Below, piece after piece: positions 8,501 to 24,298 of a stretch of 64,000 nucleotides of DNA (position 1 is the first letter of the stretch; each line of letters starts with the position of its first letter). Source of the DNA: Crateriforma conspicua (GTDB lineage Bacteria; Planctomycetota; Planctomycetia; Pirellulales; Pirellulaceae); the NCBI RefSeq assembly GCF_007752935.1, contig NZ_CP036319.1:1736001-1800000 (forward strand), read 5' to 3'. The position numbers and the translations under genes are program-made. The notes beneath the pieces are model-generated. The model did no database searches. It was not told the DNA's origin and saw nothing but the letters and a program-made list of their open reading frames with translations.

Positions 8501-8730
8501 AATCCTCACCGACGCTGGACGTTGCCGCGATTACCGAAGCATTCGCTTCCGTTGGACGTTCACTTGCGGCGTTTGACTCTGCGATCACAAACAGCACTTC
8601 GCAATTGCAATTACCTGCGACGTCCGGTGGCGAATTCAGCGAGGACATGAAACGTGCAATCATCCAAACCGCTGAGAACACTCGACGCCTTGTTGAGCGT
8701 TCGCAGTCGGGAGGATTGGTGTTTAGCTGA
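5512..8730 (+). CDS. Phage tail tape measure protein
   Basis: 1072 residues. The N-terminal 330 residues are a TP901-type tape measure core: SAYVELLTKDSAFVKGLRSAQ, MRGVAAITQATGSQLESL, KKLGATTSYSASEVASLM, and an AGPVAADANMSLEETLA block. Hydrophobic segments at about residues 378-455 are those that enter the membrane during DNA ejection. Next come Trp-rich repeats of about 130 residues (WNSTLGFMADGWTIL, WNNTIGFLKKGFLKL, WNSTVGFLKKAWIKL), a long Arg/Gln/Glu coiled coil (about 660-830), a Pro-rich stretch and a short helical tail. It sets tail length; at about 1.5 A per residue this suggests a tail near 160 nm (inference). Confidence 0.9.
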   Translation: MSQVRAGSAYVELLTKDSAFVKGLRSAQKRLESFGASTRLLGTKLMGLGAAAATPLAGSVAIFSNFDDAMRGVAAITQATGSQLESLRNTAKKLGATTSYSASEVASLMTELGRAGFKPEQIEKMTAAVMNMARATGTDATQASGIMAATIRQFGMEAGEATRVADGLTAAANKSFNTVESLGEALSYAGPVAADANMSLEETLAILGTLGNMGIQGSSAGNAMRRLLTISAAESEKFKTTFGVTTKDAKGNARSLVDILGEVAAATEKMGTAEKAEKLNEVFGLLGITAASSIGKSVADTRELYSELQKAGGIAGKTAEEMEGGLGGAFRILKSSIEGVAIAIGESLEGSVTTMVQAFSRAASGVIEWINKNQKIVKIAAASAIAIFTIGAALFALGSFAAVASFAVGGLATIFSFIGGAIGVIVSAVGMLFTPLGLVVAAVAALGGYFLYSTGIAGQAVEYLKGLFETLKADTLAAFGAIANALAAGDITAATDVLWTYLKLQWVKGTSYIKGIWADFTQYISDVWADSAYAIGDVLIGALSGLAGVWNSTLGFMADGWTILTSAVQKGWNNTIGFLKKGFLKLHELVDIAGDVSVQIGGVLINALAGVENAWVETVDYLADTWTVFVGQVKSMWNSTVGFLKKAWIKLKGLFDDDINVDVEMAKIDADTRAADSAEERQRQQAIIERQRRRSKRKEQIEANRVEMQKGIAAQLEARRKAREGQDIDADMRAIDDETDAKNAVVDQSKEQQLRENDAAQNNRQQIIDDTTVGVQRTLDQMRAEAKAAREAGRPTVEDRNKERDDQIATAQAEFDAAVQRANNATAPSDAEPKPDEAAPPEPPVAPPKIPEPGSVDIPKVDLPGIDDPELQPPNAKDLRLDLNPNAQAAMDQFADGPETDRTEVAGNFDARGLGLGSGASTIPQRAPEPLKKLEPIAAENDFVEVIVAPQLRLEPEQADDPIVSGEQDNKVIADNQVDVPFDLPEPMNQSEPTDLESSPTLDVAAITEAFASVGRSLAAFDSAITNSTSQLQLPATSGGEFSEDMKRAIIQTAENTRRLVERSQSGGLVFS

Positions 8731-9521
8731 TGTCAATATCTACTGGTGGATACGACTTCGAGGTCGCGGCTCTTTCCGAAAAGGCCTCACGCGGTAAATC
8801 ACACTCCGACTTCACTTCTTATGTTGCGACGAATGGCGGGGCTGTCGATCCGGCCGCAGCTGCGAGTGCTTTGTATCAGTACTACAAAGCGAATCACAAG
8901 GAGCTGATCCCGTATCTGCAAATCGACTCGGAGTTCATCAACCAAAAGCATGCTCTGGTCAGCGTCACGATCAACAAGACCAAGCTCGATCCGGTTTCAT
9001 TCAGTACAACGGGAGCGACAACCCATCTGAATCAGTCATTGCAGACTCGAGGCATCTACTCCGCGCCGGGGATCGCGGCTCCCGTCTATCACGGAGCGAT
9101 CGGCGTCAGCGATTCTGGCGTTTCCGGAGTCGACATCACGGTTCCAGCGTTTGAGTTCTCCGTTCGCAAGAAGTTTGAGTTCGTCTCGACGGCTTATCTG
9201 CTTGCGATGGTGTCGATGACCGGCCGAGTGAATTCGACAGCGTGGTCAATCTTCTCTCCTGGCGAAGCGTTGTTTCTCGGTGGCGAAGGAGGCGAGGATG
9301 AGCAGAACTGGGTCGATGTGACTTACCACTTCGCCGCTCGTCCGAACGAGTTCGCGATGACGGTTGGAAACATCTCCGGGATCAGCAAGCAGGGTTGGGA
9401 CTACTTGTGGGTTAAACACGGCGAGAAAGTGGTCGGCGATCGCGTGCTGCAAGTTCCTGAGGCAGCGTACGTTGAACAGGTCTATCACGGAGGAAACTTC
9501 AACGTGTTGGGGATCAGCTAG
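8730..9521 (+). CDS. Distal tail-region protein, family not recognised
   Basis: 263 residues; the ATG overlaps the tape measure stop (TGATG). It is soluble, rich in aromatic beta-strand patterns, and has no signal peptide. A central VPAFEFSVRKKFEF segment is followed by a GEALFLGGEGGEDE loop and a C-terminal half with DVTYHFAARPNEF and WDYLWVKHGEKVV. This last block, with a Trp-rich YxxxxYxxxG pattern, looks like a structural or capping domain. Position directly after the tape measure gene suggests a distal tail or hub protein, although canonical Dit and Tal motifs are not visible. Confidence 0.55.
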   Translation: MSISTGGYDFEVAALSEKASRGKSHSDFTSYVATNGGAVDPAAAASALYQYYKANHKELIPYLQIDSEFINQKHALVSVTINKTKLDPVSFSTTGATTHLNQSLQTRGIYSAPGIAAPVYHGAIGVSDSGVSGVDITVPAFEFSVRKKFEFVSTAYLLAMVSMTGRVNSTAWSIFSPGEALFLGGEGGEDEQNWVDVTYHFAARPNEFAMTVGNISGISKQGWDYLWVKHGEKVVGDRVLQVPEAAYVEQVYHGGNFNVLGIS

Positions 9522-12433
9522 TGACCCGGCGCGTAAAACCAGGCGATCAGTTTGCGATCACCGCCGCTGAATACAACCGATTGCTTGTTGCTGCCGAAGC
9601 CTCTCATCGCAATCGGCTGCCAGGAGGAGGTGGTCCTCGCACGCATCTGCGAAACGCCGCAACCGTTCGCGTTCACAACCTATCGGCAACCACGGTTCCG
9701 ATTGGCGGAATCGTCGGCTTTGAGTCGCCGCTGACCGATCCGACCGTCGGGCCAATGGAACTGGCCCGCTTTGTTCGCGACGCAACGATCGAGTGCGTGC
9801 GCCCGACCGAGGATGAACACACAGGTCGCGTTGGGGTCGCCATCGAACCGATCGCGGAAGACAAGGTCGGCCGCGTGGTGTTCGATGGCGTGGTGGCCGC
9901 GCGAGTCAACGTCGTCAAGACTTGGCATAAGTTTGCAGACGTTGGCGAATCGGCCGGTGACACGCTGCAATCGAAACCAGATGGATCGGCACAGATTCTG
10001 TGGCGACGTGACCTTAACCAACTCGGTGACCAATGGGCAGTCGTTCGTGTCGGGCGGCCTGCTGATCCGGTTTACCTTGTCGAGGTTCCGACCGGCGGTA
10101 TCGCTGGTCGCCGAGGAATGCGGACGGGCAGTGCGGACTGCGACCTCTATCAACTCGATAAAGCGGGCGAGATCGAAGCGGTCACAGATCCGGCTGGGGA
10201 CACAGTACGAATCACCGCTCGGAATCACTCGGCGCAGCGTATTCGCGGACCGATCGCCGATTCGCCGAAGCAATACCTGGAAGTGCAGTTCGACGGTCAA
10301 CGATCCTGGGTGATCGACCCGCCCAAGCAAACGCTTCTGTGCAAGCCGACGAAACGCATCAAAGCAAAGTCGTGGGGAACGGCTCGTGAACTTCGATTTG
10401 ATGGCGGATGGAAACCGATTGGCCCTGCCGTCTCGGTTTACAACGTGTGCGACTACGCGTTGCTGGCGAGCCAACAGATCGTCTGCCACTTTCACGAAGA
10501 CACATCGGCGTACTTGACGATTGGTTGCCGTTGCTGCGATGGCAGCAGTAGCTCGAGCAGCTCATCAAGCTCCAGCAGTTCGTCGAGTTCAGGTTCCAGC
10601 AGCAGTTCTAGCAGCGATTCTTCTTCGAGCAGTTCTTCATCGTCGCCCTCGTCATCATCTTCATCCTCGTCATCGGGAAGCTCATCAAGCAGCAGTGGCT
10701 CGTCGAGTAGTTCGAGCATGAGCAGCTCAAGCTCATCGAGCATGTCGTCGAGTTCCAGCAGTTCTCTGTCCTCCTCCAGTAGCAGTTCTTCAGGTTCTAG
10801 TTCGTCGAGCAGCGGATCACCCTCCTCGTCGTCCGGCAGCCCGTCGTCTTCGTCGTCATCAAGCAGTGGTTCGTCATCGAGCAGCCCGTCGTCGTCATCA
10901 AAGTCGTCGTCGAGTAGTCAATCATCCTCCGACTCTTCGTCATCCAACAGCAGCGATTCTTCCGTTAGTTCGTCCGCATCTAGCAGCAGCGAATCGAGCG
11001 ACAGTTCAAAGTCTTCATCGAGCAGCGACAGCAGTAGTCAATCGAGCGATTCGTCGGACAGTAGCGATTCAAGCACATCGACAAGTCTGCCGAGCGTAAG
11101 CAGTTCATCCAGCTCCGATGGTTCATCGTCAGCATCGAGCGATTCATCCGGAAGTTCATCAATTTCTCAATCAAGCGATTCATCCAACAGCGAGTCCAGT
11201 GACTCGAGCGATTCGACCAGTCTGCCCAGCGTCAGTGGTTCATCAAGCTCCGATGGGTCGTCGTCCGGATCGAGTGATTCGTCAAATAGTTCGTCCAATT
11301 CCCAGTCCAGCGACTCATCGACAAGCGAATCGAGTGATTCCAGTACGTCGATCAGCATGCCAAGTGCGTCCGCGTCCAGTTCATCGGCAAGTGCGTCTTC
11401 GTCGAGCGATTCACATTCAAGCGACTCAGGTTCGTCGAGCGATTCGTCCGCCTCACAATCGAGTGAATCAACCAGCACGCCATCCATTAGCAGTTCGCAA
11501 TCGTCCGCATCCGAGAGTGTGTCTTCCGCTAGCGAATCATCGACATCTGAATCCAGCCAGTCTGAATCAAGCACATCCGAAAGTGAATCACGTAGCGAGT
11601 CCGGATCGGAGAGTGCGCCTTCGTACAGTTGGAATTCGTCGACAAGCAGCCAAAGCGACTCTGAATCAAGCGGTTCCGAATCGGAATCCCAATCGCAATC
11701 AACGTCCGATTCCACATCGCAATCGGCAAGCGAGTCGGGAAGCGAATCCCAAAGTGAATCCCAAAGCGAATCAAGCATCGACCGAAGTTCGGACTCACAA
11801 AGCTACTCAGCGAGTGCTTCAGCATCGTACTCGGACAGCGCCTCCGCCAGCGAAAGCCAAAGTGGTTCTGCATCAGGCAGTGAATCAGGGTCAGGCAGCA
11901 CAAGTGCATCCGAATCAGATAGCCGCAGCGGATCTGCTTCCGATTCACGATCAACGAGCGGGTCGGAATCCGGGAGTGACTCACGAAGTGATGACTCCAC
12001 CAGCGTGCCTACATCATCCAGCGTCTCTGAATCCGATTCAACATCGCGGTCGACGAGTGATTCGGGCTCAGAAGGCTCTGACAGTGATCGGCCAAGTGCG
12101 AGCGACGATCCTAGCGTCGGTGATTCATCTGGAAGCGATAGCGATCAACCATCCGAAAGCAACGACTCGACATCCGGCTCAGACCCACCCAGCGACGGCT
12201 CCGATCGACCCAGCGAAAGTGCGTCCGATAGCAGCGACGGCTCCGATCGGCCGAGCGAAAGCGATTCAACCGAGGAACCTTCCGAAGACAGCAGCGGATC
12301 AAGTGAACCTTGCAACAGCACCTGGATTTGGTCGTGCGGTTGGGAATTGGTGAGCAGTGATTGTGAAGACCCTGGCGATCCACCGAGTTCGTCTGGTTCA
12401 TTCGATGGAGCAGTAGCGGGGATGACAGCATGA
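9521..12433 (+). CDS. Tail-tip/fibre-like protein with a 590-residue serine-rich domain
   Basis: 970 residues from the GTG at 9521 (overlapping the upstream TAG). Residues 1-340 are a mixed folded domain without recognised family (GDQFAITAAEYNRLLVAAE near the start, HFHEDTSAYLTIGCRCCDG at the end, with a Cys pair). Residues about 342-928 are almost only Ser with Asp, Glu, Gly, Pro, Gln and Thr. The last 42 residues form a short capped domain with CNSTWIWSCGWELVSSDC, probably disulfide-bonded. No signal peptide is seen. Length, position after the tail genes and the four glycosyltransferase genes that follow suggest a surface stalk or receptor-binding fibre whose Ser residues are glycosylated. 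This is inference by analogy with serine-rich repeat adhesins. Confidence 0.6.
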   Translation: MTRRVKPGDQFAITAAEYNRLLVAAEASHRNRLPGGGGPRTHLRNAATVRVHNLSATTVPIGGIVGFESPLTDPTVGPMELARFVRDATIECVRPTEDEHTGRVGVAIEPIAEDKVGRVVFDGVVAARVNVVKTWHKFADVGESAGDTLQSKPDGSAQILWRRDLNQLGDQWAVVRVGRPADPVYLVEVPTGGIAGRRGMRTGSADCDLYQLDKAGEIEAVTDPAGDTVRITARNHSAQRIRGPIADSPKQYLEVQFDGQRSWVIDPPKQTLLCKPTKRIKAKSWGTARELRFDGGWKPIGPAVSVYNVCDYALLASQQIVCHFHEDTSAYLTIGCRCCDGSSSSSSSSSSSSSSSSGSSSSSSSDSSSSSSSSSPSSSSSSSSSGSSSSSSGSSSSSSMSSSSSSSMSSSSSSSLSSSSSSSSGSSSSSSGSPSSSSGSPSSSSSSSSGSSSSSPSSSSKSSSSSQSSSDSSSSNSSDSSVSSSASSSSESSDSSKSSSSSDSSSQSSDSSDSSDSSTSTSLPSVSSSSSSDGSSSASSDSSGSSSISQSSDSSNSESSDSSDSTSLPSVSGSSSSDGSSSGSSDSSNSSSNSQSSDSSTSESSDSSTSISMPSASASSSSASASSSSDSHSSDSGSSSDSSASQSSESTSTPSISSSQSSASESVSSASESSTSESSQSESSTSESESRSESGSESAPSYSWNSSTSSQSDSESSGSESESQSQSTSDSTSQSASESGSESQSESQSESSIDRSSDSQSYSASASASYSDSASASESQSGSASGSESGSGSTSASESDSRSGSASDSRSTSGSESGSDSRSDDSTSVPTSSSVSESDSTSRSTSDSGSEGSDSDRPSASDDPSVGDSSGSDSDQPSESNDSTSGSDPPSDGSDRPSESASDSSDGSDRPSESDSTEEPSEDSSGSSEPCNSTWIWSCGWELVSSDCEDPGDPPSSSGSFDGAVAGMTA
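10544..12306 (+). repeat. Serine-codon-rich coding repeat region, with three 45-codon tandem units
   Basis: This stretch encodes the Ser-rich domain. It has four zones. The first (to about 10,930) is near-pure Ser. The second has SSDSS-type runs, including three units spaced exactly 135 bp (TSLPS at 11081, TSLPS at 11216, ISMPS at 11351). The third (about 11,480-11,960) has alternating SES, SGS and SQS. The fourth (to 12306) has a SDRPSES/DGSDRPS motif. Ser codons of the TCN and AGY types are mixed throughout, so DNA-level repeats are imperfect; that would limit slippage. Long frames on other strands here are composition artefacts. Confidence 0.9.
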
Positions 12434-13002
12434 TGCATTGCCCACATCTGACACCTGACAACCAATGCGAAGTGGCGTGCCAACTCGCTGGATGCCGCGT
12501 GCAAACGACTCCGGCCGCCTGTAACGCATGCCAAACCAACGACAACCCGTGCGCGATCAACGTCGTCACGATCGGCATGGCATTGGTCAACAAGAAGCGG
12601 CGCAAACAAGACATCACCGAGTTGGAAGCACTGCTTCGCAACTACATGCCGGACGACGATCTGATGCCGGCGACGTTGAAGATGAGCAGCTACCGGCCAG
12701 GCCCCGGCAACGAACTGAAAAAGATGATCGCTTGGTTTGCCAAGCCGAGCGAAACGTGCAACTGCGAAACCCGCGTCGACACGATGAACGACTGGGGTGC
12801 CGATGGATGCCGCCGAAACATTGACACGATCGTCGATTGGTTACTCGAAGAAGCCCAAGCAAGAGGACTCCCGCATGGAAGGTTTACCGCCACAGTCGCC
12901 CGCAGTCTCGTCAGCACTGCCATCCGCAAGTACGAGCGAAAATTCCCCGAAGGGGCACCCGAACCAGACCAAGACGATCCGGAGGACGAATTCGATCGTT
13001 GA
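12430..13002 (+). CDS. Cys-rich N-terminal, helical protein of unknown function
   Basis: 190 residues; the ATG overlaps the upstream stop (ATGA). The N-terminal 42 residues hold eight Cys (HCPHLTPDNQCEVACQLAGC, then AACNACQTNDNPC), which suggests a zinc-ribbon or iron-sulfur site. The rest is helical and basic, with GPGNELKKMIAWFAKP and a CNCETRVDTMNDWGADGC block, then NIDTIVDWLLEEAQARGLPHG. Its 3' part overlaps the next gene by 128 bases. Its place at the start of the glycosylation cassette suggests an accessory role for the Ser-rich protein, but nothing in the sequence proves this. Confidence 0.5.
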   Translation: MMHCPHLTPDNQCEVACQLAGCRVQTTPAACNACQTNDNPCAINVVTIGMALVNKKRRKQDITELEALLRNYMPDDDLMPATLKMSSYRPGPGNELKKMIAWFAKPSETCNCETRVDTMNDWGADGCRRNIDTIVDWLLEEAQARGLPHGRFTATVARSLVSTAIRKYERKFPEGAPEPDQDDPEDEFDR

Positions 13003-14350
13003 ACGTTGCTTCTTGATGAACCTCGATCGACGCGATGATCGGCTGCGTGACTGGATGCGGCAGCTTCCCGATCCGTGGCCGTTCCCCGAACCCGAACGGT
13101 TCACCGCGATCGACGGCCGTCGCGTGGCCACGCCCCCGCAGTGGCGGGCTGGGAACGGAGCGTGGGGGTGCTACCGATCTCACTTACTGATTCTCGAAAA
13201 GTGTTTGCTCGAACACATCGACTCGTATGTCGTCTTTGAAGACGACGCCGGTTTCGGCGATGACTTTTGCGAACGACTGCAGCAGTTCATTGCGGAATTG
13301 CCGGCTGACTGGGGCATGGCGTATCTCGGCGGCCAACATTTATACGCCGGCAAGAACCCGCCGTACAAGGTCAGCGAACACGTCTATCGTCCGTACAACG
13401 TGAATCGCACGCACGCGTTCATGGTGCGAGGACGCGAGGCGATGAAAACACTCTATCGTCATTTGACTTGGAACGATTGGCACACCAAGCATCATATCGA
13501 CCATCACCTCGGTCGATTGATCCAGCGCCGTTACCAGGCACTCGTGCAAGGTAAGAACATCCAAAAGGAATCCATTGCGGTTTACACGCCCGATCGCTGG
13601 CTCGTTGGACAACTGCCGACCAAGTCAAATATCTGCGGTCGCAAATGGAGTCAAACGCGGTTCTTCAATGACGCCAAGAACGCGGACCATTCGGACGCAC
13701 CGTTCTTTGCGGTCCTCGGCCCGCACCGCGCCGGCACGTCGTGTGTCGCAATGGTGATGCATCACCTGGGCGTTCACATGGGCAACCAACTCGGCGGCTA
13801 CGAAGCGACCGGAGGCGGCGAGGCAGTTGGACTGGCACAGCTTTGCGAAAAGGTGATGCGTTTCCCGGCTACCGATCCGAATGTTAGCGACGACCAACTG
13901 ACTCAAATGCTCAAGTCGTGGATCGTTAGCCGCAAATCGGAAGCCAATCGCGACAAGACAGTCGCTGGAGCGAAGTATCCGCACTTGTGTCGGTTCGTGA
14001 CTCACCTTCACGCGGGGCTTGGTGATTCACTGCGAATCATCTCTGTCGAACGAGATATCGAGGCGTCGATTCGATCGCTGCAAAACCGAAGCGAGAAACA
14101 CCGTGGCCAGTGGTTCGCGGCGAACGACGAGGACTGTGAGGTTCTGCAACGCAGTCTCCGCGACCACCGAGACAACTTCATCTCCGAGCATCCCGACGTG
14201 CCGGTGTTCCGGATCGAATTCGCCGAGTTGGTGACGTATCCCGAGGAAGTGATTGGCAATCTCATCGAGTTCCTCGGCATCACGCCGACCCAGGATGAAA
14301 TCCAGTCGGCAATCGAACACGTCAATCCAGATCTTCGGAAGTTTGGGTGA
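12875..14350 (+). CDS. Glycosyltransferase family 25 - sulfotransferase fusion
   Basis: 491 residues from the ATG at 12875, chosen because AGAGGA (12862-12867) lies seven bases upstream and the first strand of the fold needs a start before 13000. The longer frame from 12797 lacks such a site. Residues about 47-270 are GT25-like (ERCFLMNLDRRDDRL, GAWGCYRSHLLILE, YVVFEDDAGF), as in LPS GT25 enzymes. Residues about 280-490 are a sulfotransferase-type P-loop domain: VLGPHRAGTSCVAMVMHHLG for phosphosulfate binding, a SVERDIEASIRSL helix, and FRIEFAELVTYPEEV. It may add a sugar and then sulfate it. The enzymes probably act in the cytoplasm before export or assembly. Confidence 0.75.
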   Translation: MEGLPPQSPAVSSALPSASTSENSPKGHPNQTKTIRRTNSIVERCFLMNLDRRDDRLRDWMRQLPDPWPFPEPERFTAIDGRRVATPPQWRAGNGAWGCYRSHLLILEKCLLEHIDSYVVFEDDAGFGDDFCERLQQFIAELPADWGMAYLGGQHLYAGKNPPYKVSEHVYRPYNVNRTHAFMVRGREAMKTLYRHLTWNDWHTKHHIDHHLGRLIQRRYQALVQGKNIQKESIAVYTPDRWLVGQLPTKSNICGRKWSQTRFFNDAKNADHSDAPFFAVLGPHRAGTSCVAMVMHHLGVHMGNQLGGYEATGGGEAVGLAQLCEKVMRFPATDPNVSDDQLTQMLKSWIVSRKSEANRDKTVAGAKYPHLCRFVTHLHAGLGDSLRIISVERDIEASIRSLQNRSEKHRGQWFAANDEDCEVLQRSLRDHRDNFISEHPDVPVFRIEFAELVTYPEEVIGNLIEFLGITPTQDEIQSAIEHVNPDLRKFG

Positions 14351-15111
14351 GCACTATGTCGAATAGCATTTCAACGGCAGACATCACCTTCTGCATCAAG
14401 ACGATTCACCGGCCTTGGTCCTGCCATCGGCTGGTCCAGTCGCTGCGCGAGCAAATCGCCGACCCGACCATTGTCGTCGTCGATGACGGTCGCCCCGAAC
14501 TTCGCTTCAGCGAGAAGTATCCCGAAACCGCCAAGCATTGCGAGGTCATCAATCTCGATCGGCACGATGTGGGCGTCGGAGTCGGACGCAATGCAGCGAT
14601 CGACGCGGCGCAGACCGAGTACATCTTTCTGCTCGACGACGATCACGTAATCACCGCTGATTTCCAAATCGACCGCGTCTGCGAGTACTTCGTAGACCAC
14701 GAACTCGACATCCTCGCAGTGCGCCAAGGAGGAGGCGGTCGGCCAACCATGCTCTCACCGTTGATGAACGGTAAACGCATCTGGATGCACCGCGGTGAAA
14801 AGAAGCGAGTTGGCTCGGTCGCCTGGTGCGACATGGTCAGCAACGCATTCCTCGCTCGCAGGGAGACGATCGCGACGCTCCGTTGGGACGAAGCCCTGAA
14901 GACGTACGAGCACTGGGAGTTCTTCTACCGGGCGAGCCACCTAGCCAAGCTGCAAATTGCGGTCGCCACCGATTGTTCCGTCGTCCACGCCCATGTTGCC
15001 GGAACCGGCTACCGCGATTTGCGTGGGCGATCGAAGTTCCGTGCGATGGGACTTCGTAAACACGGTTTCCATTCATTGCGCTATCCAGGAGGTCAAATCG
15101 TCCGTGCGTAA
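14347..15111 (+). CDS. Family 2 glycosyltransferase (copy 1)
   Basis: 254 residues starting at GTG, which overlaps the preceding stop (GTGA); an ATG four codons in is an alternative. It has a GT-A fold: TFCIKTIHRPWSCHRLVQSL, TIVVVDDGRPELRFS, VGVGVGRNAAIDAA, and the nucleotide-sugar/metal motif LLDDDHVITADF (DDD at about residue 98). An acidic catalytic region RWDEALKTYEHWEFFYR follows. It is a paralogue of the next gene, with TFCIKTIHRP and the DDG.PELRFS motif shared. The acceptor is unknown; the neighbours suggest the Ser-rich protein or a phage surface glycan. No membrane segment is seen. Confidence 0.75.
   Translation: MSTMSNSISTADITFCIKTIHRPWSCHRLVQSLREQIADPTIVVVDDGRPELRFSEKYPETAKHCEVINLDRHDVGVGVGRNAAIDAAQTEYIFLLDDDHVITADFQIDRVCEYFVDHELDILAVRQGGGGRPTMLSPLMNGKRIWMHRGEKKRVGSVAWCDMVSNAFLARRETIATLRWDEALKTYEHWEFFYRASHLAKLQIAVATDCSVVHAHVAGTGYRDLRGRSKFRAMGLRKHGFHSLRYPGGQIVRA
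15087..15092 (+). promoter_or_regulatory. Strong ribosome binding site deciding the start of GT2 copy 2
   Basis: AGGAGG, perfectly complementary to the anti-SD, lies 11 bases before the GTG at 15104 and inside the 3' end of GT2 copy 1. It supports a GTG start rather than the upstream ATG of the same frame (14957), which would overlap copy 1 by 155 bases. Confidence 0.7.
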
Positions 15112-15817
15112 TCAAGCCACCTTCTGCATAAAAACGATTCACCGTCCACATTGCTGTGCGGCACTCGTTCGCAGCATTTACGAACACTATGGCGACGACC
15201 GTCCGCTGATCCACGTCCTCGATGACGGCAAACCGGAACTGCGATTCTCGGCCGTTTGTCCAGACGAAGCCGCCATGGTCGATCGACTAATCGAGACCGA
15301 GTACGACATTGGTCTATCGGCCGGTCGCAACAGACTGCTCGATATTGGCGACACGCCGATCGTTATCTTCGCCGATGACGATCATCTCGTGACGAATCAA
15401 ACGCGATTGCCAGAGCTGATCGCGACGCTCAATAAACATCACGATCTCGATCTGCTGGCGGCGCTCAGCAACAACGAAGAGCGTCCTCGCATGTTACGTG
15501 TCGACGGCAGAACCCTGCGTATCGCCTTCGGAAGCTACCGACAGCGGCGTTCGATTCGCTGGTGCCATTACGTCGGCAACTGCTTTGTTGCCTATCGCGA
15601 CATTCTGCAAGCGATCCGCTGGGACGAGTCACTCAAGGTCGAAGAGCACTGGGACTTCTTTTGGCGAGCAAAGATCGCCGGAATGAACGTCGCAGTCGAT
15701 CTAAATCACTCGTTCAAACATGAGCACGTCGACCCGCCCGGCTATCAACGACGGCGACCGGAGTTCTTGAAAGCCGGTTTGGACAAACACGGACTGGAGA
15801 AAGTTGTATGGAAATGA
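15104..15817 (+). CDS. Family 2 glycosyltransferase (copy 2)
   Basis: 237 residues from the GTG at 15104. This start is set by a strong ribosome binding site AGGAGG at 15087-15092 and by the alignment of TFCIKTIHRP with the paralogue just upstream. The GT-A fold motifs are LIHVLDDGKPELRFS, DIGLSAGRNRLLD, and IFADDDHLVT with the DDD metal site. A C-terminal RWDESLKVEEHWDFFWR matches the copy-1 block. The C-terminus differs (GYQRRRPEFLKAGLDKHG). It overlaps copy 1 by eight bases and the next gene by ten, so all are co-translated. It is probably a second step on the same acceptor. Confidence 0.75.
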   Translation: MRNQATFCIKTIHRPHCCAALVRSIYEHYGDDRPLIHVLDDGKPELRFSAVCPDEAAMVDRLIETEYDIGLSAGRNRLLDIGDTPIVIFADDDHLVTNQTRLPELIATLNKHHDLDLLAALSNNEERPRMLRVDGRTLRIAFGSYRQRRSIRWCHYVGNCFVAYRDILQAIRWDESLKVEEHWDFFWRAKIAGMNVAVDLNHSFKHEHVDPPGYQRRRPEFLKAGLDKHGLEKVVWK

Positions 15818-16833
15818 AACGAGTGATTGCGGTCCTCGACTTGCCACCACGGCGAGCATCGCAGAACGTACGAGAAAGCTATGAGGCTGCCGCGAAACGA
15901 TGGGGCGCGGAGGTGCTTTGGATTGACGATCACCTTCAACCCGTGCATCCATTCTGGCAGAAGATGTTTGTCTGCGATCACGTGCATCAAGAGTTCGGGC
16001 CGGCGCACGTGCTGCAACTAGACAACGACATGTTGATCCGATCGGACTGTCCTTCGCCGTTTGATCTGCTGACCCCGAAGCAATTCGGAATGGTTGCCGA
16101 GCGTCAATCAGCCAATAATCGGATCGACAATGGAGGTTGGCAGCAGCGGGCGCAAGAGATTTGGGCGAAGCGATGCGGTGTGCGGCCGGCACCGACATGG
16201 CTGCATCCGAACGGTGGACTCTATCTGTATGGCTCAGAAATGTATGGGCCGATGTTCGCTCGCATCATTAGGCATTTGATTCCGACGTGGGGTGCCAGCG
16301 ATCAGGCCACCGACGAGTCGTTGATCGTCAACCAACTTTACAACGACCATCCGGGCTACATCAAATTCTTGCCGCCCGATTTCAACGTCAGCATGGTCTA
16401 CTCGCCTGCCTGGGCCATCAATCCGGTCATGCAATCTTACGTCTACCATTTTGTTGGGCGATCAAAGGCTCACATTGATGAATGTCATTGGCGACGACGT
16501 GATCCACCGGAGCTACCGTTTCCAGGCAACGCTCAAACGCAAGAACTGATTCAGCTATGGAGAGACGATCCGCCGGCCGAATACGACATCGGCTCGATCT
16601 TCACTCCACAACTTGCCGCGAACCTGCTTGCCATCTATCCGAATTTGGTTGTCACTGGCCAGTGGTCAGACGAGCCATACCAATTGGATCGACGGATGCT
16701 CAGTCATACGGAAACCGGTTCGTCGCATTTGGTGCTAACCCGCTTTCTGTTGCAGCTAGGCATCAACGCTCGACGCTTTCGACTTCGCGTTAAGGAGGAC
16801 AACAATGCAACGACACAACTTGCCAGCACTTGA
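15808..16833 (+). CDS. GT8-like glycosyltransferase
   Basis: 341 residues starting at ATG, overlapping the previous gene by ten bases. A GT-A metal site (HVLQLDNDMLI, Asp-x-Asp at about residue 72) is followed by WLHPNGGLYLYG, the motif in GT8-like enzymes where the Gly pair contacts the sugar donor. Also seen are DESLIVNQLYN and a HFVGRSKAH block with a conserved His. It begins VIAVLDLPPRRASQNVRESYEAA, an unusual N-terminus that may bind the acceptor. No membrane segment is seen. It forms an operon with two GT2 enzymes and the GT25/sulfotransferase. Confidence 0.6.
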   Translation: MEMKRVIAVLDLPPRRASQNVRESYEAAAKRWGAEVLWIDDHLQPVHPFWQKMFVCDHVHQEFGPAHVLQLDNDMLIRSDCPSPFDLLTPKQFGMVAERQSANNRIDNGGWQQRAQEIWAKRCGVRPAPTWLHPNGGLYLYGSEMYGPMFARIIRHLIPTWGASDQATDESLIVNQLYNDHPGYIKFLPPDFNVSMVYSPAWAINPVMQSYVYHFVGRSKAHIDECHWRRRDPPELPFPGNAQTQELIQLWRDDPPAEYDIGSIFTPQLAANLLAIYPNLVVTGQWSDEPYQLDRRMLSHTETGSSHLVLTRFLLQLGINARRFRLRVKEDNNATTQLAST

Positions 16834-17614
16834 GTATCACCTAGCGCACGGTTGCAATTTGTCTTGTCAGCAATGCAGCCACTACAGCGACCACCATTTG
16901 CGCGGCGCGATGCCCACGATCGAGCAAGCCGATGCCGATTACCAGAAGTGGTCGCATCGTCTGAAGCTGACTCGGTTCGCGTTGCTCGGTGGCGAGCCTC
17001 TATTGAATCCCGCCATTTTGGAACACATCAAGCTCGCTAGGCAGCATTGGGACAGCGACTTGATGCTCGTTACCAACGGATTCTTTCTACATCGGTTTCC
17101 CGAACTGCCGAAAGTGCTCGTGGAAACGCACTGTCGACTCGAAGTCAGCCAGCACGGAGCGCACGCCGAATATGTCAAACGCTTTCGCGAAGTCAAACAC
17201 CTGGTTTGGCGCTGGCGAGAACAGTTTCCCGGCATTCGCATCAAGATTCGACAATCGCACCGCGGCTGGATGCGTCAGTACAAGGTAGCGAATGGCAAAC
17301 CAATGCCGTTCAACTCCAGGCCCAACGCCGCGTTCAAAGTCTGCATGCAGAAAACCTGTGCACAGCTCTACGAAGGCAAGCTTTGGAAATGTCCCGCGCT
17401 GGCCTACTTTGCCAAGCTCGAATCCAAGCTGCGTCTACATGAATTGCCGCAGTGGCAACTCTTCCGCGACTACCAAGCGTGTTCACAAGACGCCACGGAT
17501 GAAGAACTGCAAGCCTTCATCGAAACCAAATCCATTCCGCAGTGCGGATTATGCCCCAGCAAACGCACCGCATTCTCCCATCCCGATCCTCTGCAACGGA
17601 GTGCCCTGCAATGA
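16805..17614 (+). CDS. Radical SAM protein
   Basis: 269 residues. A very good ribosome binding site AAGGAGG (16792-16798) lies six bases before the ATG, inside the GT8-like gene. The radical SAM cluster motif is CNLSCQQC (about residues 17-24), with ALLGGEPLLNPAIL (about 59-72) as the GGEP SAM-binding motif and MLVTNGFFL after it. Extra cysteines late in the chain (CMQKTC, KCPAL and CGLC near the end) suggest SPASM-type auxiliary clusters. Radical SAM enzymes of this architecture modify peptides or sugars. The context suggests a modification linked to the Ser-rich protein or its glycan. Confidence 0.8.
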   Translation: MQRHNLPALEYHLAHGCNLSCQQCSHYSDHHLRGAMPTIEQADADYQKWSHRLKLTRFALLGGEPLLNPAILEHIKLARQHWDSDLMLVTNGFFLHRFPELPKVLVETHCRLEVSQHGAHAEYVKRFREVKHLVWRWREQFPGIRIKIRQSHRGWMRQYKVANGKPMPFNSRPNAAFKVCMQKTCAQLYEGKLWKCPALAYFAKLESKLRLHELPQWQLFRDYQACSQDATDEELQAFIETKSIPQCGLCPSKRTAFSHPDPLQRSALQ

Positions 17615-18066
17615 CGTATCCTTCCGACTATCCGGAAATGCCGCCTTACCCATTCGTCCCGCCGTTTGATCCGCCCGGCAGCGAACCACCCTACGATCCC
17701 GAGGAAGACGACGACGGTCCAATCATTCTCACTCCGCCGCCATTGCCACCACCGCCGGTGTGGCCCGACGACTATCCGCCAGGCACTCCCGATCCCGGCC
17801 CGCGTCCGCCTTGGTGGCCAGACGATTACCCTTGGCCGCCGCCTCCCGAAGAACCGGTGGTGATCGAGTCACCGCCGCCGATTCACGTTTGGCCGCGACT
17901 GCCGCCGGACCATCCCTATCACGTCCCGCCGGGTTACTCTGCGCCAGACAACCTTCCGCCAGGTCACCCCGGCGAAGCCTATCCTGGTATGCCCGATTAT
18001 CCCGTCGTTCATCCCGGAGACTGGGGCGACGATTGGCCGAGCTATCCAGGCATCCTCGACGAGTGA
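17611..18066 (+). CDS. Proline-rich protein, last gene of the phage cassette
   Basis: 151 residues from the ATG at 17611, which overlaps the radical SAM stop (ATGA); the longer frame from 17542 lacks a site and overlaps more. About 30 percent of the residues are Pro, with DYP..PP and PPPP runs (PPPLPPPPVWPDDYPPG, WWPDDYPWPPPP) and many Tyr, Trp and Asp. No signal peptide or membrane segment is present. It is likely an unstructured or polyproline II rod. It could be a tail-associated or adhesive accessory protein; the function is unknown. Confidence 0.55.
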   Translation: MTYPSDYPEMPPYPFVPPFDPPGSEPPYDPEEDDDGPIILTPPPLPPPPVWPDDYPPGTPDPGPRPPWWPDDYPWPPPPEEPVVIESPPPIHVWPRLPPDHPYHVPPGYSAPDNLPPGHPGEAYPGMPDYPVVHPGDWGDDWPSYPGILDE

Positions 18067-18629: not shown

Positions 18630-21038
18630 ATGGACCACGATAAGAAACACGAGTCGTCCTTGCCGGTCGCCGATCCGTCAACGCAGATCGACCCGGTTTG
18701 TGGAATGACCGTTTCGGCGGATAGTCCACGATCGGCTGAGTTTGGTGGCAAGAACTACGTTTTTTGCAGCGACGGATGCTTGAAAAAGTTCCAAGATGAT
18801 CCTGCAGAGTTTAGTAAGGAGTCGGGAGTTGGGAGTGAGGAGAAAGCCGAACACTCATGCTGTGGATCCAAGACGACCAAATCGAACGGTCATCACTCAA
18901 CGCTCCCCTCTCCCAACTCCCAGACTCTTTTCACCTGTCCAATGCACCCAGAAGTCGAGCAGGTCGGCCCCGGCGACTGCCCGATTTGTGGGATGGACTT
19001 GGAGCCGAAGGTCGTCTCGTTGGATGAAGAGGGTGAAGATAAACAATACGCCGACATGAAACGTCGCTTTTGGGTTGGCGTTGCGTTGTCGGTGCCATTG
19101 CTCGTGATCGCGATGGGGCCGATGGTCGGATTGCGGGTCGCGGATTGGATGAGCCAGACGGTGTTTGGCTGGGTGCAGTTGGCTCTGGCGACGCCAGTTG
19201 TGTTCTGGTGCGGATGGCCCTTGTTGGTTCGCGGAGCCAAGTCGTTTCGCACGATGAACTTGAACATGTTCTCGTTGATCGCCGTGGGAACATTGGCGGC
19301 ATATCTGTTCAGTTTGGTCGTTGTGTTGCTTCCCGGTGTGATCCCAGAAGCCTTCTTCGAGAACGGTGTTCCACCTCTCTATTTTGAAGCCGCGGCGGTG
19401 ATCATCACCTTGGTGTTGCTCGGGCAAGTATTGGAGCTGCGAGCACGACAGCAGACGGGCGGAGCGATTCGGGAACTCATGAAGCTTGCGCCCGAGACGG
19501 CACACCGAATCACAGACGATGGCGAGGAAGATGTCTCGCTCGATTCAGTCCACAAGGGCGATCGGCTGCGAGTACGACCTGGCGAGAAAGTTCCGGTCGA
19601 TGGGAAAGTTCTTAGCGGGTCGAGCAGCGTCGATGAGTCAATGTTGACGGGCGAGCCGATGCCGGTGAAGAAGGCGGAAGGTGACGAAATCACGGGCGGA
19701 ACGTTGAACCAGACTGGTGCGCTCGTCATGGAAGCTGTCGGTGTTGGCGGGGACACGGTTCTGAACCGCATCGTGCAAATGGTTGCGGACGCACAGCGGA
19801 GTCGTGCTCCGATTCAGAAACTGGTCGATGTGGTCGCGCGTTACTTTGTGCCGGCGGTGATCGTTTGTTCGATGGCAGCGTTCATCGGCTGGGCGGTGTT
19901 TGGTCCAGAGCCGCAACTGGCTCATGCGTTCGTAGCGGCCGTTGCGGTGTTGATCATTGCTTGCCCGTGTGCGTTGGGGCTGGCGACGCCGATGTCCGTG
20001 ATGGTGGGTGTTGGCCGAGGAGCGAAGGAAGGCGTGCTGATCAAGAACGCTGAAGTCCTCGAAGTCATGGAGAAGGTTGACACGATTGTTGTCGACAAGA
20101 CAGGCACACTGACGCAGGGACGACCGGAAGTGACGGGTGTCGAGACGTTTGCTGACTGGAATGAGAACGATGTGTTGACGTTGGCTTCTGCTGTCGAAGC
20201 ACAGAGCGAGCATCCGTTGGCTCAGGCGGTCGTTCGCCGAGCGAAGGCGGATGAGTTGCAGCTTGTGGAGGCGAGTGAATTCAATAGTATAACCGGTGGT
20301 GGCGTTCGCGCTCGCGTCGATGATCATGATGTGTTGATTGGCAAGGCTGACTTGTTGGACGAACAAGGCATCGAGGGCGTTGATGCGGGGCGAGACAAAG
20401 CGGGATCGCATCAGGTCGAAGGTGCGACGGTTGTGTTCGTGGCGATCGACAACAAGCTGGCGGCAATTCTCGCCATCACTGACCCGATCAAGCAAAGCAC
20501 GCCTGCAGCGCTAAAGACGTTGCATGAACTGGGGTTGAGAGTGGTGATGTTGACCGGCGATGCCGAACCGACCGCGAAAGCCGTCGCATCCAAACTGGGC
20601 ATCGACGAATTTCATGCTGGGGTTTCGCCCGAGGAAAAGCATGACTTCGTTCGCAAGCTGAAGCAGGAAGGCAAGACAATTGCGATGTGTGGCGATGGGA
20701 TCAACGACGCTCCTGCACTTGCCGAAGCGAACGTTGGCATCGCCATGGGCACCGGGACGGGCGTTGCGATTGAGTCTGCCGGTGTCACGCTTGTCGGTGG
20801 CGATCTTCGCGGTGTGGCTGCGGCGGCAAACTTGAGTCGCAAAACGATGAGCAACATTCGTCAGAACTTGTTTTTCGCTTTCATCTACAACACCCTGGGA
20901 ATTCCGGTCGCAGCTGGGTTGCTGTATCCGATCTTCGGCGTGTTGCTCAGCCCCATGATTGCAGCAGCAGCGATGAGTTTTAGCAGTGTGTCGGTGATTG
21001 CGAATGCGTTGAGATTGCGGGCAGCCAAGCTCACGTAG
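18630..21038 (+). CDS. copA: Cu(I)-exporting P1B-1 ATPase with YHS and heavy-metal-binding N-terminal domains
   Basis: 802 residues. N-terminal YHS domain (DPVCGM at about 21-26, FCSDGC at about 45-50), a linker, then a heavy-metal-binding module ([20 protein letters not shown]). There is no CxxC HMA domain. Membrane transport region: [13 protein letters not shown] (CPC, about 445). DKTGTLT (about 488) is the phosphorylation site, GDGINDAP (about 687) the hinge. The FIYNTLGIP and MSFSSVS motifs of the last helices (YN, MxxSS) indicate Cu(I) specificity (P1B-1, SilP-like domain order). The 38-codon insert at 18816-18929 sits between the two N-terminal domains. The gene is divergent from csp with a shared operator. 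Confidence 0.9.
18816..18929. repeat. Hairpin element inserted in frame in the copper ATPase gene
   Basis: A 114-bp (38-codon) segment is bounded by inverted arms: GGGAGTTGGGAG at 18824-18835 pairs perfectly with CTCCCAACTCCC at 18910-18921, and the flanks extend the match to about 27 bases per side. It lies between the YHS domain and the metal-binding module, a linker that tolerates extra residues. The same kind of arm occurs at 37817-37920 and, degenerately, at other sites in the window. Confidence 0.7.
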
Positions 21039-21133
21039 TTCCGGTTGGTCGATTTGCGACCAGCGCATAGGCTCGGTAGACCGTACAACTGAACCCCTTT
21101 TCGCAAATGACTTCCAGAAAGTTCACTGCAAAC

Positions 21134-21150
21134 ATACCCCTCGCAGGTAT
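21134..21150. promoter_or_regulatory. CsoR-type operator upstream of the TolC-oxidase-CsoR operon
   Basis: ATACC-CCTCGCA-GGTAT, the same 5-7-5 dyad as at 18578 and 37330. It lies 59 bases before the GTG at 21209. A weak -35 (TTCACT, 21122-21127) would place the dyad between -35 and -10, so a bound repressor would block RNA polymerase. The csoR gene downstream has no box of its own, so it would be autoregulated through this site. Confidence 0.7.
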
Positions 21151-21208
21151 CTAGCCGATCTGAAAAGCAAGCCAACATGCCGCTGCTCAGATCAAAGGAG
21201 TGATTTCA

Positions 21209-22732
21209 GTGCGATCGTTTTTGTTCAAGTCCGGACTATCAGTCATTGCGACTGCCGGAATTTTTTGTACCGCTGCCAGTGCCCAAATGCCTTCGATTGG
21301 TAACACGGCTTCGGCGATCGGTCGCACATTCACGCCTCCACCACCTGTGCCATCGGCACCCTACGGTTTAGATCAGCTCGATCCAAGCGGGCCACTATTT
21401 CCCGGTGTTCGCATCGACGGCAGCGACTTCGGTAGCGCGCCAGCTCCTGTTTACGTCGACGGCGAAATGATCTCGGAGACGTTCCCAACGGAAACAGAAG
21501 TCCAAGGATACAGGCTAGATGATTTCCTGACTCTGGCGGCTCAGAACAATCCCACGATCCGTCAAGCTCGACTGCAGATTTCAGCACAGACCGCCAAGGC
21601 ATTGCAGGCAGGTTTGTACCCCAACCCGACTCTGAACTACATCGGCGAACAGATCGGAGTTGATGTCGAAGGCGACAAGGATTCGCCGGGCGAGTTTCAG
21701 GGTATGACAGTGAGTCAACGTTTTGTCACTGCCGGCAAGCTAAAATTGAGTCGTGAAAAATACATGCGCCGTGCTCATATCTCCGAACACCTCGCGATGG
21801 CTCAACAGTTCCGCGTCTGCAATGACGTGCGGATTCACTTCTTCCGAGCGTTAGCGGCTCGCGAAATCGTCGAGCTGCGAAAGGAGCTGTTGAAAACGGC
21901 CGAAGATGGTGCTGTCACTGCACGCGAGCTTTACAACCAAGGCCAAGCAACACGTCCACAAGTTCGCAAATCGAGCATTGCGTTGCAGCGGGCGAGGCTA
22001 GACGTGTTGTCCGCAGAGAATCACTACCGCGAATCATTTCGACGGTTGGTTGCGATCGTTGGTGTCGACTTGACCGACGGTGTCGTGTCCGGCGAGCTGA
22101 TGCCGCAAGGTGAACCGCTTTCTTATCAGGAGGCGATGTCTTTGGTGCTGACGGAAAGCCCAGAACTTGCCGCCGCCCGAGCGAAGTTGGCGGCGGACCG
22201 CGTCACCGTCAGACGTGAACAAGTCGAGTGGGTTCCGGACATCGTTGCCGAAGGCGGAGCCGGATACAACTTCGAGGCCAAAGAAACCACGGCAGCGGCC
22301 GGAGTCTCGATCGAATTGCCTGTGTTTGATCGGAACCAGGGCACCATTCGCCAAGCCCAACTGGATTATCGCCGGCAACAAGAAGAGATTCGCCGCACCG
22401 AGTTGATGCTGCAGCAGCAGATGGCCAACGTCTACCAACAGTATTTGACGGCACTGCAAATCGCGACGGAATACGATCGGGTGATCATTCCCGAAGCCGA
22501 ATTGGCCTATCAAGAATTGCTCGAAAGCTACAAAGCGAACCGAGTTGATTGGCCGACGGTACTGGACGCACAGATGGATTACTTCGATTCACGTTTGACC
22601 CGAGTCCAACATCTCGAACAAGTCCGCACGAACGAAGTTCTCGTCAGAGGCTACCTGTTGCACGGCGGTTTGATGGCAGCCCCTGGTCCAACGCCACCAG
22701 GTCACATCGACGCCGTTGCGAAGCCTCGTTAA
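21209..22732 (+). CDS. TolC-family outer-membrane efflux protein
   Basis: 507 residues from the GTG at 21209: AAAGGAG at 21194-21200 gives the right spacing for it, while the GTG at 21200 overlaps that site. A signal peptide (LSVIATAGIFCTAASAQ) ends at about residue 23. Two OEP repeats follow (LDDFLTLAAQNNPTIRQARL and YQEAMSLVLTESPELAAARA), with outer-membrane strand and loop features (NPTLNYIGEQIG, SQRFVTAGKL, ELPVFDRNQGTIRQ) and coiled-coil helices. It is part of a copper operon with a multicopper oxidase and CsoR, so it may serve a copper RND pump encoded elsewhere in the window. It resembles CzcC/CusC-like factors. Confidence 0.85.
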   Translation: MRSFLFKSGLSVIATAGIFCTAASAQMPSIGNTASAIGRTFTPPPPVPSAPYGLDQLDPSGPLFPGVRIDGSDFGSAPAPVYVDGEMISETFPTETEVQGYRLDDFLTLAAQNNPTIRQARLQISAQTAKALQAGLYPNPTLNYIGEQIGVDVEGDKDSPGEFQGMTVSQRFVTAGKLKLSREKYMRRAHISEHLAMAQQFRVCNDVRIHFFRALAAREIVELRKELLKTAEDGAVTARELYNQGQATRPQVRKSSIALQRARLDVLSAENHYRESFRRLVAIVGVDLTDGVVSGELMPQGEPLSYQEAMSLVLTESPELAAARAKLAADRVTVRREQVEWVPDIVAEGGAGYNFEAKETTAAAGVSIELPVFDRNQGTIRQAQLDYRRQQEEIRRTELMLQQQMANVYQQYLTALQIATEYDRVIIPEAELAYQELLESYKANRVDWPTVLDAQMDYFDSRLTRVQHLEQVRTNEVLVRGYLLHGGLMAAPGPTPPGHIDAVAKPR

Positions 22733-22783
22733 TCAACGCTTCGTCGTCACCAACATCCATTCACATTAAGCAGTCTCAATCTC

Positions 22784-24298
22784 ATGCCCAGTCCAGAAGA
22801 TCGTCGTAAGTTTTTGAAAGTAGGCTCGTTCGCCGCAGCAACTGGTTTCGTTGGCAATTTGCTGGGACGCGATGCCAACGCGCAAGAACCCATGCAGCAC
22901 AGCGGCATGAAGCAACACGACAACATGCCGCAGCCAATCGGCAACGCCTCGGCTCGCCCTGAAATCCCGGCCTCATCGGAGGTCGCCGCGGAATACGAGG
23001 GATTCTCTCGCTTCAAACCCAGTCGCGGTCTCGATCCAGACTCGGACTATTACATCGGCAAGCTGGTTCCAGGGTTTCGCAAGGCTTCCGATGGCCCCGC
23101 GCCATTTGAGGCTCCCGACATCCCAACGTTGCCCTACAAGATGGACAACGGTGTGAAGGTGTTTGAACTTGTGCCGATGGCAGTTCAGCAAGAGTTTCAT
23201 CCTGGCGTGAAGATGAACGTCTACGGCTACAACGGAAGCATGCCCGGCCCGACGATCGAAGTCACTCAAGGCGATCGAGTTCGCATCGTTGTCACCAACG
23301 AACTGCCGGAAGATACGTTCGTGCATTGGCACGGTTTTGAGCTGCCCGTTCAGTATGACGGAGCCGCCACGTTGACACAGAACCCCATCAAGCCTGGAAA
23401 GACGAAGGTCTTTGAGTTCGACATCCATGAAGAAGGCACGTTTTTCTATCACTCGCATGTTGCGATGCAAGAAGCGTTTGGGCAAGTCGGATGGTTCATC
23501 GTCCATCCCAAGAGAGTCTTCGACCCGCCGGTGGATCGCGATTTTGGATTGCTGTTTCAGAACTTTCATATTCCGCCGACGCACACGATTAGCGATTCGT
23601 GGTCGATGGACTGGAATTGGCACACGATCAACGGCAAGAGTGGCCCCTACACGACACCGCTTGTATGCAAACATGGCGAGCGTGTTCGTGTGCGACTGTT
23701 GAACTTCGCCCCGATGCAACACCATCCGATCCACCTGCATGGGCATACGTTTTGGGTGACCAGTCACGAAGGGGCTCGCATTCCCAAGAGTGCCTGGGTT
23801 CCACGCAACAACGAATTGGTCGGTGTCGCTCAGGCTTCGAGCTTCGAGTTCATCGCCAACAACCCCGGCGATTGGATTTTCCATTGTCACATGATTCACC
23901 ACATGATGAACCACATGGTCAAACAAGTGGGACCGCGAATGCGCGATGACGCTTCGGTCGATCAGTACCTCGCGAATCTCAGCAGCCGCCCGCAGGTCGA
24001 CGCTTCACGAAGTGACAAATTTGCGACGCCAGGCTACCCACAGAAGATGCAGGGCATGGAGATGTCCGAGGATTTTATGAACGCGATTTGGAGCCGAAAG
24101 GAAGTTCGCGGAATGCGAGCGAACTATGCGATGTCGGTCAAAGGATTGATGACCGTGCTGCGAGTTCTGCCAGACGATCTGTATGAGTTGGTAATGAACA
24201 GCGACCAGCCGGTTGAAAAGGGAGCGGTATTCGCTGAAATCGTTCGTCGTTTCGGTGACCCCGGTAAGTACGAAGCTGCGCCCAGGATGATGATGTGA
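22784..24298 (+). CDS. Tat-exported multicopper oxidase (CueO/CopA-like)
   Basis: 504 residues. A twin-arginine signal (DRRKFLKVGSFAAATGF) targets it to the periplasm folded. All four copper-binding blocks are present: HWHG, HSH (in FYHSHVAMQE), HHPIHLHGHTFW and HCHMIHHMMNHM; the last block gives the type 1 and type 2/3 ligands. A Met/His-rich segment after the signal (MQHSGMKQHDNM) may bind Cu(I). It probably oxidises Cu(I) to Cu(II) in the periplasm. It lies between the TolC-like protein and CsoR. The C-terminal extension of about 110 residues after the copper ligands is longer than in CueO. Confidence 0.9.
   Translation: MPSPEDRRKFLKVGSFAAATGFVGNLLGRDANAQEPMQHSGMKQHDNMPQPIGNASARPEIPASSEVAAEYEGFSRFKPSRGLDPDSDYYIGKLVPGFRKASDGPAPFEAPDIPTLPYKMDNGVKVFELVPMAVQQEFHPGVKMNVYGYNGSMPGPTIEVTQGDRVRIVVTNELPEDTFVHWHGFELPVQYDGAATLTQNPIKPGKTKVFEFDIHEEGTFFYHSHVAMQEAFGQVGWFIVHPKRVFDPPVDRDFGLLFQNFHIPPTHTISDSWSMDWNWHTINGKSGPYTTPLVCKHGERVRVRLLNFAPMQHHPIHLHGHTFWVTSHEGARIPKSAWVPRNNELVGVAQASSFEFIANNPGDWIFHCHMIHHMMNHMVKQVGPRMRDDASVDQYLANLSSRPQVDASRSDKFATPGYPQKMQGMEMSEDFMNAIWSRKEVRGMRANYAMSVKGLMTVLRVLPDDLYELVMNSDQPVEKGAVFAEIVRRFGDPGKYEAAPRMMM

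Follow-up and report, generated by a model that had tools for sequence, protein, structure and literature searches.

Why does a phage tail operon in a planctomycete end in a protein built largely of serine, followed at once by overlapping genes for glycosyltransferases and other enzymes? The question arises in a window of 64,000 nucleotides (the whole stretch of DNA analysed, bases 1736001-1800000 of the single-contig 7.18 Mb genome of Crateriforma conspicua). We think it probable that the Ser-rich protein is a phage fibre which, before it is assembled, receives O-glycans and possibly sulfate in the host cytoplasm; this is a prediction from sequence.

PHROGs profile matches place a terminase and a portal protein just upstream, on the 5′ side of the window, and decoration, neck and major tail proteins within it. 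Together with the tape measure protein (Table 1), they bear out the phage tail setting that a sequence-only reading of the locus had proposed. The order of a tailed prophage (terminase, portal, capsid/protease, tape measure) is found, with the capsid-protease part taken from a second genomic copy; the capsid-protease gene scanned with PHROGs is that of the second copy, the window's homologous gene spanning the window edge (G000 1734200-1736281). The whole operon is present a second time at 2117-2139 kb, and the Ser gene and the cassette of enzymes form the 3′ end of the tail operon. The host genome also has a third, divergent tail module (L013/L014, G000 about 7118660-7131000, near 7.12 Mb), with a short 254-aa homologue and without a Ser stalk. 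None of the cassette enzymes gave an in-frame match in this third module, where the Cys protein alone matches; from this distribution, the Cys protein may belong to the tail and not to the glycosylation machinery.

Past the element, at window positions 18630-24298, a metal P-type ATPase (from 18630), an outer membrane efflux protein and a multicopper oxidase were recognised by eye and are probably host metal resistance genes. Three consecutive minus-strand ORFs upstream of the terminase (L004:10372-13576; 333, 329 and 412 aa) look recombinase-like by eye. Loci of the same family carry the names Rhodopirellula, Stieleria, Rubripirellula and Aporhodopirellula, all of which we take to be Pirellulaceae; Rhodopirellula rubra CECT 8075 alone has four loci. 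Relatives of the operon also occur on IMG/VR viral contigs. The N-terminal domain of the Ser-rich protein is 95-100% identical across several named genera (L046-L052, L071-L075), a sequence similarity that points to recent spread of the phage across genera.

Table 1. Features of the tail operon end, in window coordinates
Feature	Position	Strand	Evidence
Tape measure protein, 1072 aa	5512..8730	+	PhageMin_Tail 8e-47; PHROG tail length tape measure 3.6e-80
Conserved tail protein, 263 aa, directly 5′ of Ser gene, survey anchor	8730..9521	+	
Ser-rich protein, 970 residues	9521..12433	+	
N-terminal domain, residues 1-341, likely tail-attachment part	9521..10543	+	
Ser-rich stalk, residues 342-910	10544..12250	+	355 Ser/569 residues (62%)
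C-terminal cap	12251..12433	+	Cys/Trp motif WSCGW
Cys-containing protein, 190 aa	12430..13002	+	conserved Cys and PGPG motif
GT25-sulfotransferase fusion, start codon uncertain	12797..14350	+	Pfam
GT2 glycosyltransferase a	14347..15111	+	PF00535 1.4e-13
GT2 glycosyltransferase b	15104..15817 (ORF opens 14957; start near 15104 by eye)	+	PF00535 1.3e-7
GT8-like enzyme, 341 aa, accessory	15808..16833	+	indirect homology; D-N-D motif conserved
Radical SAM enzyme, extra C-terminal Cys motif	16805..17614	+	PF04055 8e-11
Proline-rich protein	17542..18066	+	

The Ser-rich protein has three parts. Its N-terminal domain falls in a single blastp cluster that lies directly 3′ of the anchor in 69 of the 88 anchored loci, whether a stalk is present or absent. 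A search of 50,697 deposited phage records and 72,556 plasmid records returned no relative of this domain; for the GT25 enzyme there were three matches, all weak and partial, to records of uncultured phages. The sequence-only reading had put the Ser-rich residues at about 590, a fair estimate, since one rule gives 569 and a looser window rule 618. The commonest spacers between the serines are D, G, E, A and T. A chance or microsatellite origin of the poly-Ser is unsupported, as all six Ser codons are used in the stalk at 7-25% each, near the background mix of the neighbouring genes. The WSCGW cap is found in 40 of 45 distinct relatives (the window protein is outside the 45), with stalks of 139-710 residues. 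In L062, L063, L070, L103 and L104 the stalk has only 85-87 residues and the C-terminus is different. An LPxTG wall anchor occurs in none of the 45 distinct relatives, and is absent from the window protein too.

The ORFs confirm that the Ser-rich gene is followed by overlapping enzyme genes, in the order Cys protein, GT25-sulfotransferase, two GT2 enzymes, GT8-like enzyme, radical SAM enzyme and Pro-rich protein. The long overlap between the Cys and GT25 genes depends on the choice of start codon, as does the long N-terminus of the second GT2. Pfam supports the fusion, both GT2 calls and the radical SAM call made earlier from the letters, with scores above cut-off: one ORF matches GT25 (3e-9), Sulfotransfer_1 (2.8e-7) and Sulfotransfer_3 (1.3e-6). 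GT2a and GT2b are paralogues. The GT8-like call fared less well; this enzyme has neither a direct Pfam match nor a solved relative, and is linked to the family through a protein of L120, which is 30% identical to it over 259 residues and itself matches GT8 at 6.7e-6. The Cys protein exists as described, although "Cys-containing" fits it better than the earlier label "Cys-rich". Neither it, nor the 263-aa tail protein, nor the proline-rich protein has a Pfam, PHROG or NCBIfam match.

For each enzyme, motifs that we take to be catalytic are conserved across 16-35 distinct sequences. The FEDD motif of GT25 and the PAPS-loop-like motif of the sulfotransferase (a GPHRxGTS loop) are conserved in 35 and 34 distinct sequences, respectively; the conserved motifs of the other enzymes are DDD (both GT2s), D-N-D (GT8-like) and CxxxCxxC with GGEP (radical SAM). 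In the cassettes of L197, L198, L200, L201 and L202 we note an additional ORF of ~148 aa, nucleotidyltransferase-like by eye.

Within the family the cassette is tightly linked to the Ser gene. Clustering of ORFs in 39 loci with at least 6 kb of downstream DNA (the window and second copy included, with three or more R. rubra loci counted twice) found the Ser protein, Cys protein and GT25-sulfotransferase in 39/39. GT2 was found in 38, the radical SAM enzyme in 28, the proline-rich protein in 26 and the GT8-like enzyme in 16; many loci end earlier. In-frame tblastn of 25 loci with at least 8.4 kb downstream (one R. rubra locus counted twice, L054/L081) gave the Cys protein, GT25 and sulfotransferase each in 25/25, the radical SAM enzyme in 23/25 and the GT8-like enzyme in 12/25. 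The proline-rich protein matched in 21/25, a loose count because of its low complexity. At least one GT2 is present in 24/25 loci and two distinct GT2 genes in 22/25; L070 and L105 have one GT2 alone, and L107 has none.

The sequence-only reading implied that the Ser gene should not regularly occur without the enzymes, nor the enzymes regularly in unrelated surface-polysaccharide loci. Across 241 family genomes, 41 of 49 strong N-domain matches (weaker matches left out) are followed by GT25-sulfotransferase. Of the eight exceptions, L224 and L227 are truncated Ser genes, and the other six are, by their coordinates, apparently cut by contig ends. The reverse count, over full-length GT25-sulfotransferase matches of at least 69% identity in the same genomes (partial matches left out), places 41 of 49 behind an N-domain. 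Here L204 has cassette and stalk without the N-domain, L228 has Ser-rich sequence at a contig edge, and L226 and two matches in G096 (starting near base 200 of their contigs) lie at contig edges. The remaining three, L205, L206 and L225, are cassettes with no stalk in the DNA seen, which for L225 includes 4.6 kb upstream. The proposed co-occurrence of enzymes and Ser gene thus largely stands for GT25, stalkless cassettes and distant homologues elsewhere apart, and is looser for the radical SAM enzyme: 40 of its 69 matches (at least 50% identity over at least 233 residues) lie behind an N-domain and 29 away from it.

Seven of these 29 were inspected (L204; L207; L217-L220 and L222). Five of them, L217-L220 and L222, are stalkless remnants of the 3′ end of the cassette; in another remnant, L221, part of GT25 is left together with the sulfotransferase and a GT2. 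The partial cassettes L217-L222, mostly the GT2/radical SAM/Pro-rich end, sit elsewhere in five genomes and could, on their sequence, be either remnants or a reservoir for exchange. L205 and L206 contain, ~12 kb from the first, a second, inverted cassette with GT25-sulfotransferase and GT8-like genes (L205:6027-9222, L206:10375-13450); both are stalkless with only a partial Cys-gene match, and each is possibly a spare or a relic. In L207 the radical SAM match lies beside two other Ser-rich ORFs.

Distant GT25 homologues number about 28 (31-48% identity), and ten were fetched (L207-L215, L223). By tblastn the nine loci L208-L215 and L223 have no tail genes and no other cassette genes. In L210, L211 and L214 a Ser/Thr-rich ORF lies nearby, and its sequence suggests, by eye, a surface protein of the host. 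At L207:12061-14117 and L112:4377-7103 (reverse-complement coordinates), sugar enzymes are flanked by proteins rich in Ser or Thr that have a CECCK motif close to their N-terminus. In L207 these enzymes are, by tblastn, GT25-sulfotransferase, two GT2s and radical SAM; in L112 they were recognised by eye. Such proteins, outside this tail family, are possibly a second type of acceptor.

Distant GT25 homologues in other chromosomal settings, and the existence of stalkless cassettes, would suit lysogenic conversion, in which the prophage enzymes alter the surface polysaccharide of the host, for example to exclude other phages. Phage glycosyltransferases can alter host surface polysaccharide according to the account in PMC12619734. 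We consider this improbable for the present cassette, in which no exporter, flippase or polymerase family is among the Pfam matches. In a simple hydropathy scan the cassette proteins peak at a 19-residue value of 1.32 and the tape measure protein at 2.30, which makes a membrane segment in the cassette unlikely. The cassette genes moreover overlap a tail gene, and the pairing tracks the Ser stalk and not the tail module as such. A fibre modified by its own cassette remains our preferred reading.

Tail modules with and without a stalk provide a natural control for this pairing. Modules were found by alignment with the 263-aa tail protein as anchor, relatives of which occur in 61 of 241 family genomes and in 42 of 392 genomes across the phylum. 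The control loci were hand-chosen; divergent modules and long contigs were favoured, and most near-identical loci of the window type were left out. From 94 stretches fetched, nine were dropped, eight with little downstream DNA (L163, L173, L176, L177, L193, L118, L121 and L123) and one with no anchor match (L112); the window and the second and third own copies were added to give 88 loci. A stalk was defined as at least 60 residues covered by 40-residue windows that each contain 16 or more Ser. By this definition 26 loci have a stalk and 62 do not, L172 having been moved by hand to the no-stalk set (its short Ser-rich ORF is 7.9 kb away).

A glycosyltransferase at Pfam level lies nearby in 21 of the 26 stalk modules and in at least about six of the 62 no-stalk modules, the latter a lower bound with 144 of 282 non-redundant no-stalk ORFs scanned (Fisher 1.2e-10, a value that overstates independence since the loci share ancestry and were hand-picked). 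For loci with 6.5 kb downstream the counts are 20/25 and 6/56 (Fisher 1.6e-9). Counted by genome, with 6.5 kb seen, they are 17/20 and 4/39, one untraced glycosyltransferase (TOD1_MUCI70) being outside the count. The positive stalk loci are 11 of the window type with L111, L113, L114, L124, L116, L120, L133, L142, L144 and L152; some were scored by homology to a scanned member or by sequence from pooled scans. L117, L127, L140 and L141 have an MptE-like protein alone, with a sub-threshold or no Pfam score (L141 by homology). L122 has a stalk and no glycosyltransferase was found there. The no-stalk glycosyltransferases number at least three: a GT9 (the L153-L155/L157 cluster), a GT4 (L160) and the one TOD1_MUCI70 without a traced locus.

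On the stalk side the Pfam scan of 63 of 118 non-redundant ORFs under-counts, as de-duplication kept over-long representatives, and the 47 proteins of another Pfam scan are a biased sample of hand-picked candidate enzymes. When proteins of stalk loci were compared by phmmer with 365 no-stalk ORFs, no homologue of a cassette glycosyltransferase was found among these ORFs apart from one weak match (E 9e-4); it involves the fusion of GT8 and methyltransferase in L120 and probably runs through the methyltransferase part. One stalkless module, L119, has a radical SAM protein and a protein with a phosphoribosyltransferase domain (L119:7499-10148), together with a small ORF that is similar to a P-loop protein from L122.

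The same comparison bears on whether the stalk is the acceptor at all. The target of the enzymes might be a different protein of the virion (tail tube, capsid, decoration or Pro-rich protein), the Ser stretch being an unmodified flexible linker. Marine enzymes include some with poly-Ser linkers that are not known to carry glycans, and L070, with its short stalk, still keeps GT25-sulfotransferase and one GT2. Mycobacteriophage glycans are known, from the account in PMC12619734, on capsid and tail tube subunits. We hold this alternative to be unlikely, as stalkless modules too contain the 263-aa tail protein and the genes around it, and there glycosyltransferases are rare among the scanned proteins. 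We infer instead that the stalk is the acceptor.

Stalks are paired with different enzyme sets. GT4 and a GT64-like enzyme occur with GT2 in L124 (the L111 group), Mannosyl_trans3 with FkbM in L116, GT32 with an MptE-like protein in L133, GT8 with a sulfotransferase-like protein in L120, pyruvyl transferase with GT32 and GT25 in L142, and GT2 in L152. As we group them, sugar enzymes accompany about seven of the eight stalk types. GT25 is shared with the window type by the L142 type and the GT8-like enzyme by the L120 type; the other sets are unrelated. Because the enzyme sets differ between stalk types, the pairing of stalk and enzymes probably arose several times, as read from these sequences.

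Within the window type, the GT25 of L067, L105 and L107 is 80-86% identical, whereas two tail neighbours are merely 43-54% identical. Its in-frame dN/dS is 0.01-0.03, and on this sequence measure GT25 is under strong constraint. Positive selection on GT25 and sulfotransferase was rejected: a signal of high dN with near-zero dS is a frame artefact. In L074 and L050 the radical SAM-ProR end has been exchanged (dS above 1), and in L075 the divergence jumps past the Cys gene. The cassette is, on these patterns of divergence, a mosaic.

Such mosaic contents, with the 3′ end swapped in L074 and L050, could also be expected of a slot that terminates the tail operon and collects morons as cargo, its link to the Ser gene reflecting common ancestry alone. 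The slot does hold unrelated genes in stalkless loci, and detached cassette remnants exist. Several stalk types with different enzyme sets and the strong constraint on GT25 argue against hitch-hiking of this kind, and we regard it as very improbable. A functional pairing of stalk and cassette, as in a glycosylated fibre, is the reading that we carry forward.

Between the window and L051, whose N-domains are 99% identical, there are 344 Ser-Ser pairs in the stalk, 130 of them through different codons, and eight Ser-other pairs; 51 of 204 non-Ser pairs differ, and there are seven gap runs. Comparison with L050 gives 229 Ser-Ser pairs, 37 Ser-other pairs and 204 gap columns. Ser identity is thus mostly kept between relatives despite codon changes. 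L052, with flanking genes nearly identical to those of the window, has a stalk with 80 changed Ser codons and eight gap runs; repeat shuffling therefore contributes, and the codon differences are not all point changes. As evidence of selection, Ser conservation is partly confounded by this shuffling.

Three known systems may be compared. In mycobacteriophages, phage-encoded glycosyltransferases decorate the phage's own capsid and tail tube (Freeman et al. 2023, Cell Host Microbe, as cited in PMC12619734 and PMC13313380). Here too glycosyltransferases are encoded in a phage, as judged from the Pfam matches and the IMG/VR relatives. The acceptors in those accounts are capsid and tail tube subunits, whereas the acceptor proposed here, read from genes, is a long Ser-rich tail fibre; the present locus also differs, as far as those accounts describe the mycobacteriophage system, in having a sulfotransferase and a radical SAM enzyme beside the acceptor gene.

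The sequence-only reading had likened the locus to the serine-rich repeat (SRR) adhesins of Gram-positive bacteria. The shared logic stands, in that a Ser-rich acceptor gene adjoins its own glycosyltransferases (described for SRR adhesins in PMC6973325 and PMC5207161), and the long Ser-rich region of these proteins has its counterpart here in 355 Ser among 569 residues. Membership of the group does not: unlike SRR adhesins, the protein has no LPXTG and no membrane-like N-terminal segment, and it is encoded in a planctomycete phage tail operon. A general Pfam scan found no GtfA/GtfB or accessory Sec genes among the matches of the window cassette proteins. Solved GT25 enzymes (PF01755; relatives 8xlz and 8xc8) share the GT25 profile match and an acidic motif with the cassette enzyme, which differs from them in being fused to a sulfotransferase; the similarity to them is weak (E 0.006).

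These observations can be assembled into a model. The region would be the distal tail of a siphovirus-type prophage and its fibre a mucin-like stalk. The N-terminal domain would dock beside the 263-aa tail protein, the Ser-rich stretch would form an extended stalk and the short Cys/Trp cap would close the tip. The enzymes, translated from the same overlapping genes, would modify the stalk in the cytoplasm before assembly. In this scheme GT25 and the pair of GT2 enzymes may build short O-glycans on the stalk serines, to be sulfated by the fused sulfotransferase. GT25 perhaps acts early, because it is present throughout and is the most conserved, an order of enzymes that is guessed from conservation. 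Variation or editing of the glycan would fall to the GT8-like enzyme and perhaps to the radical SAM enzyme; the part of the latter in the pathway is the least certain because its linkage is looser. We infer in the same way the chemistry and site of the glycan, its presence in the virion and its role; the decorated stalk might serve to hold the fibre in an extended, soluble state, to shield it, or to join in host binding.

We found no description in the open-access literature of a Ser-rich planctomycete phage fibre with such a cassette. There is about an even chance that planctomycete phages have repeatedly evolved virus-encoded mucins, that is, Ser stalks with exchangeable, self-contained cytoplasmic pathways of glycosylation and sulfation in which the glycan type is swapped by enzyme replacement and the stalk and tail are retained. 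If the fibres are glycosylated as proposed, these phages would possess a full system for protein O-glycosylation that is portable and brings its own acceptor, and with it a new way to build and vary phage adhesion devices. The cassettes would then supply cytoplasmic enzymes able to glycosylate and sulfate poly-serine, and the fibres a testable model for virus glycans shaping host range.
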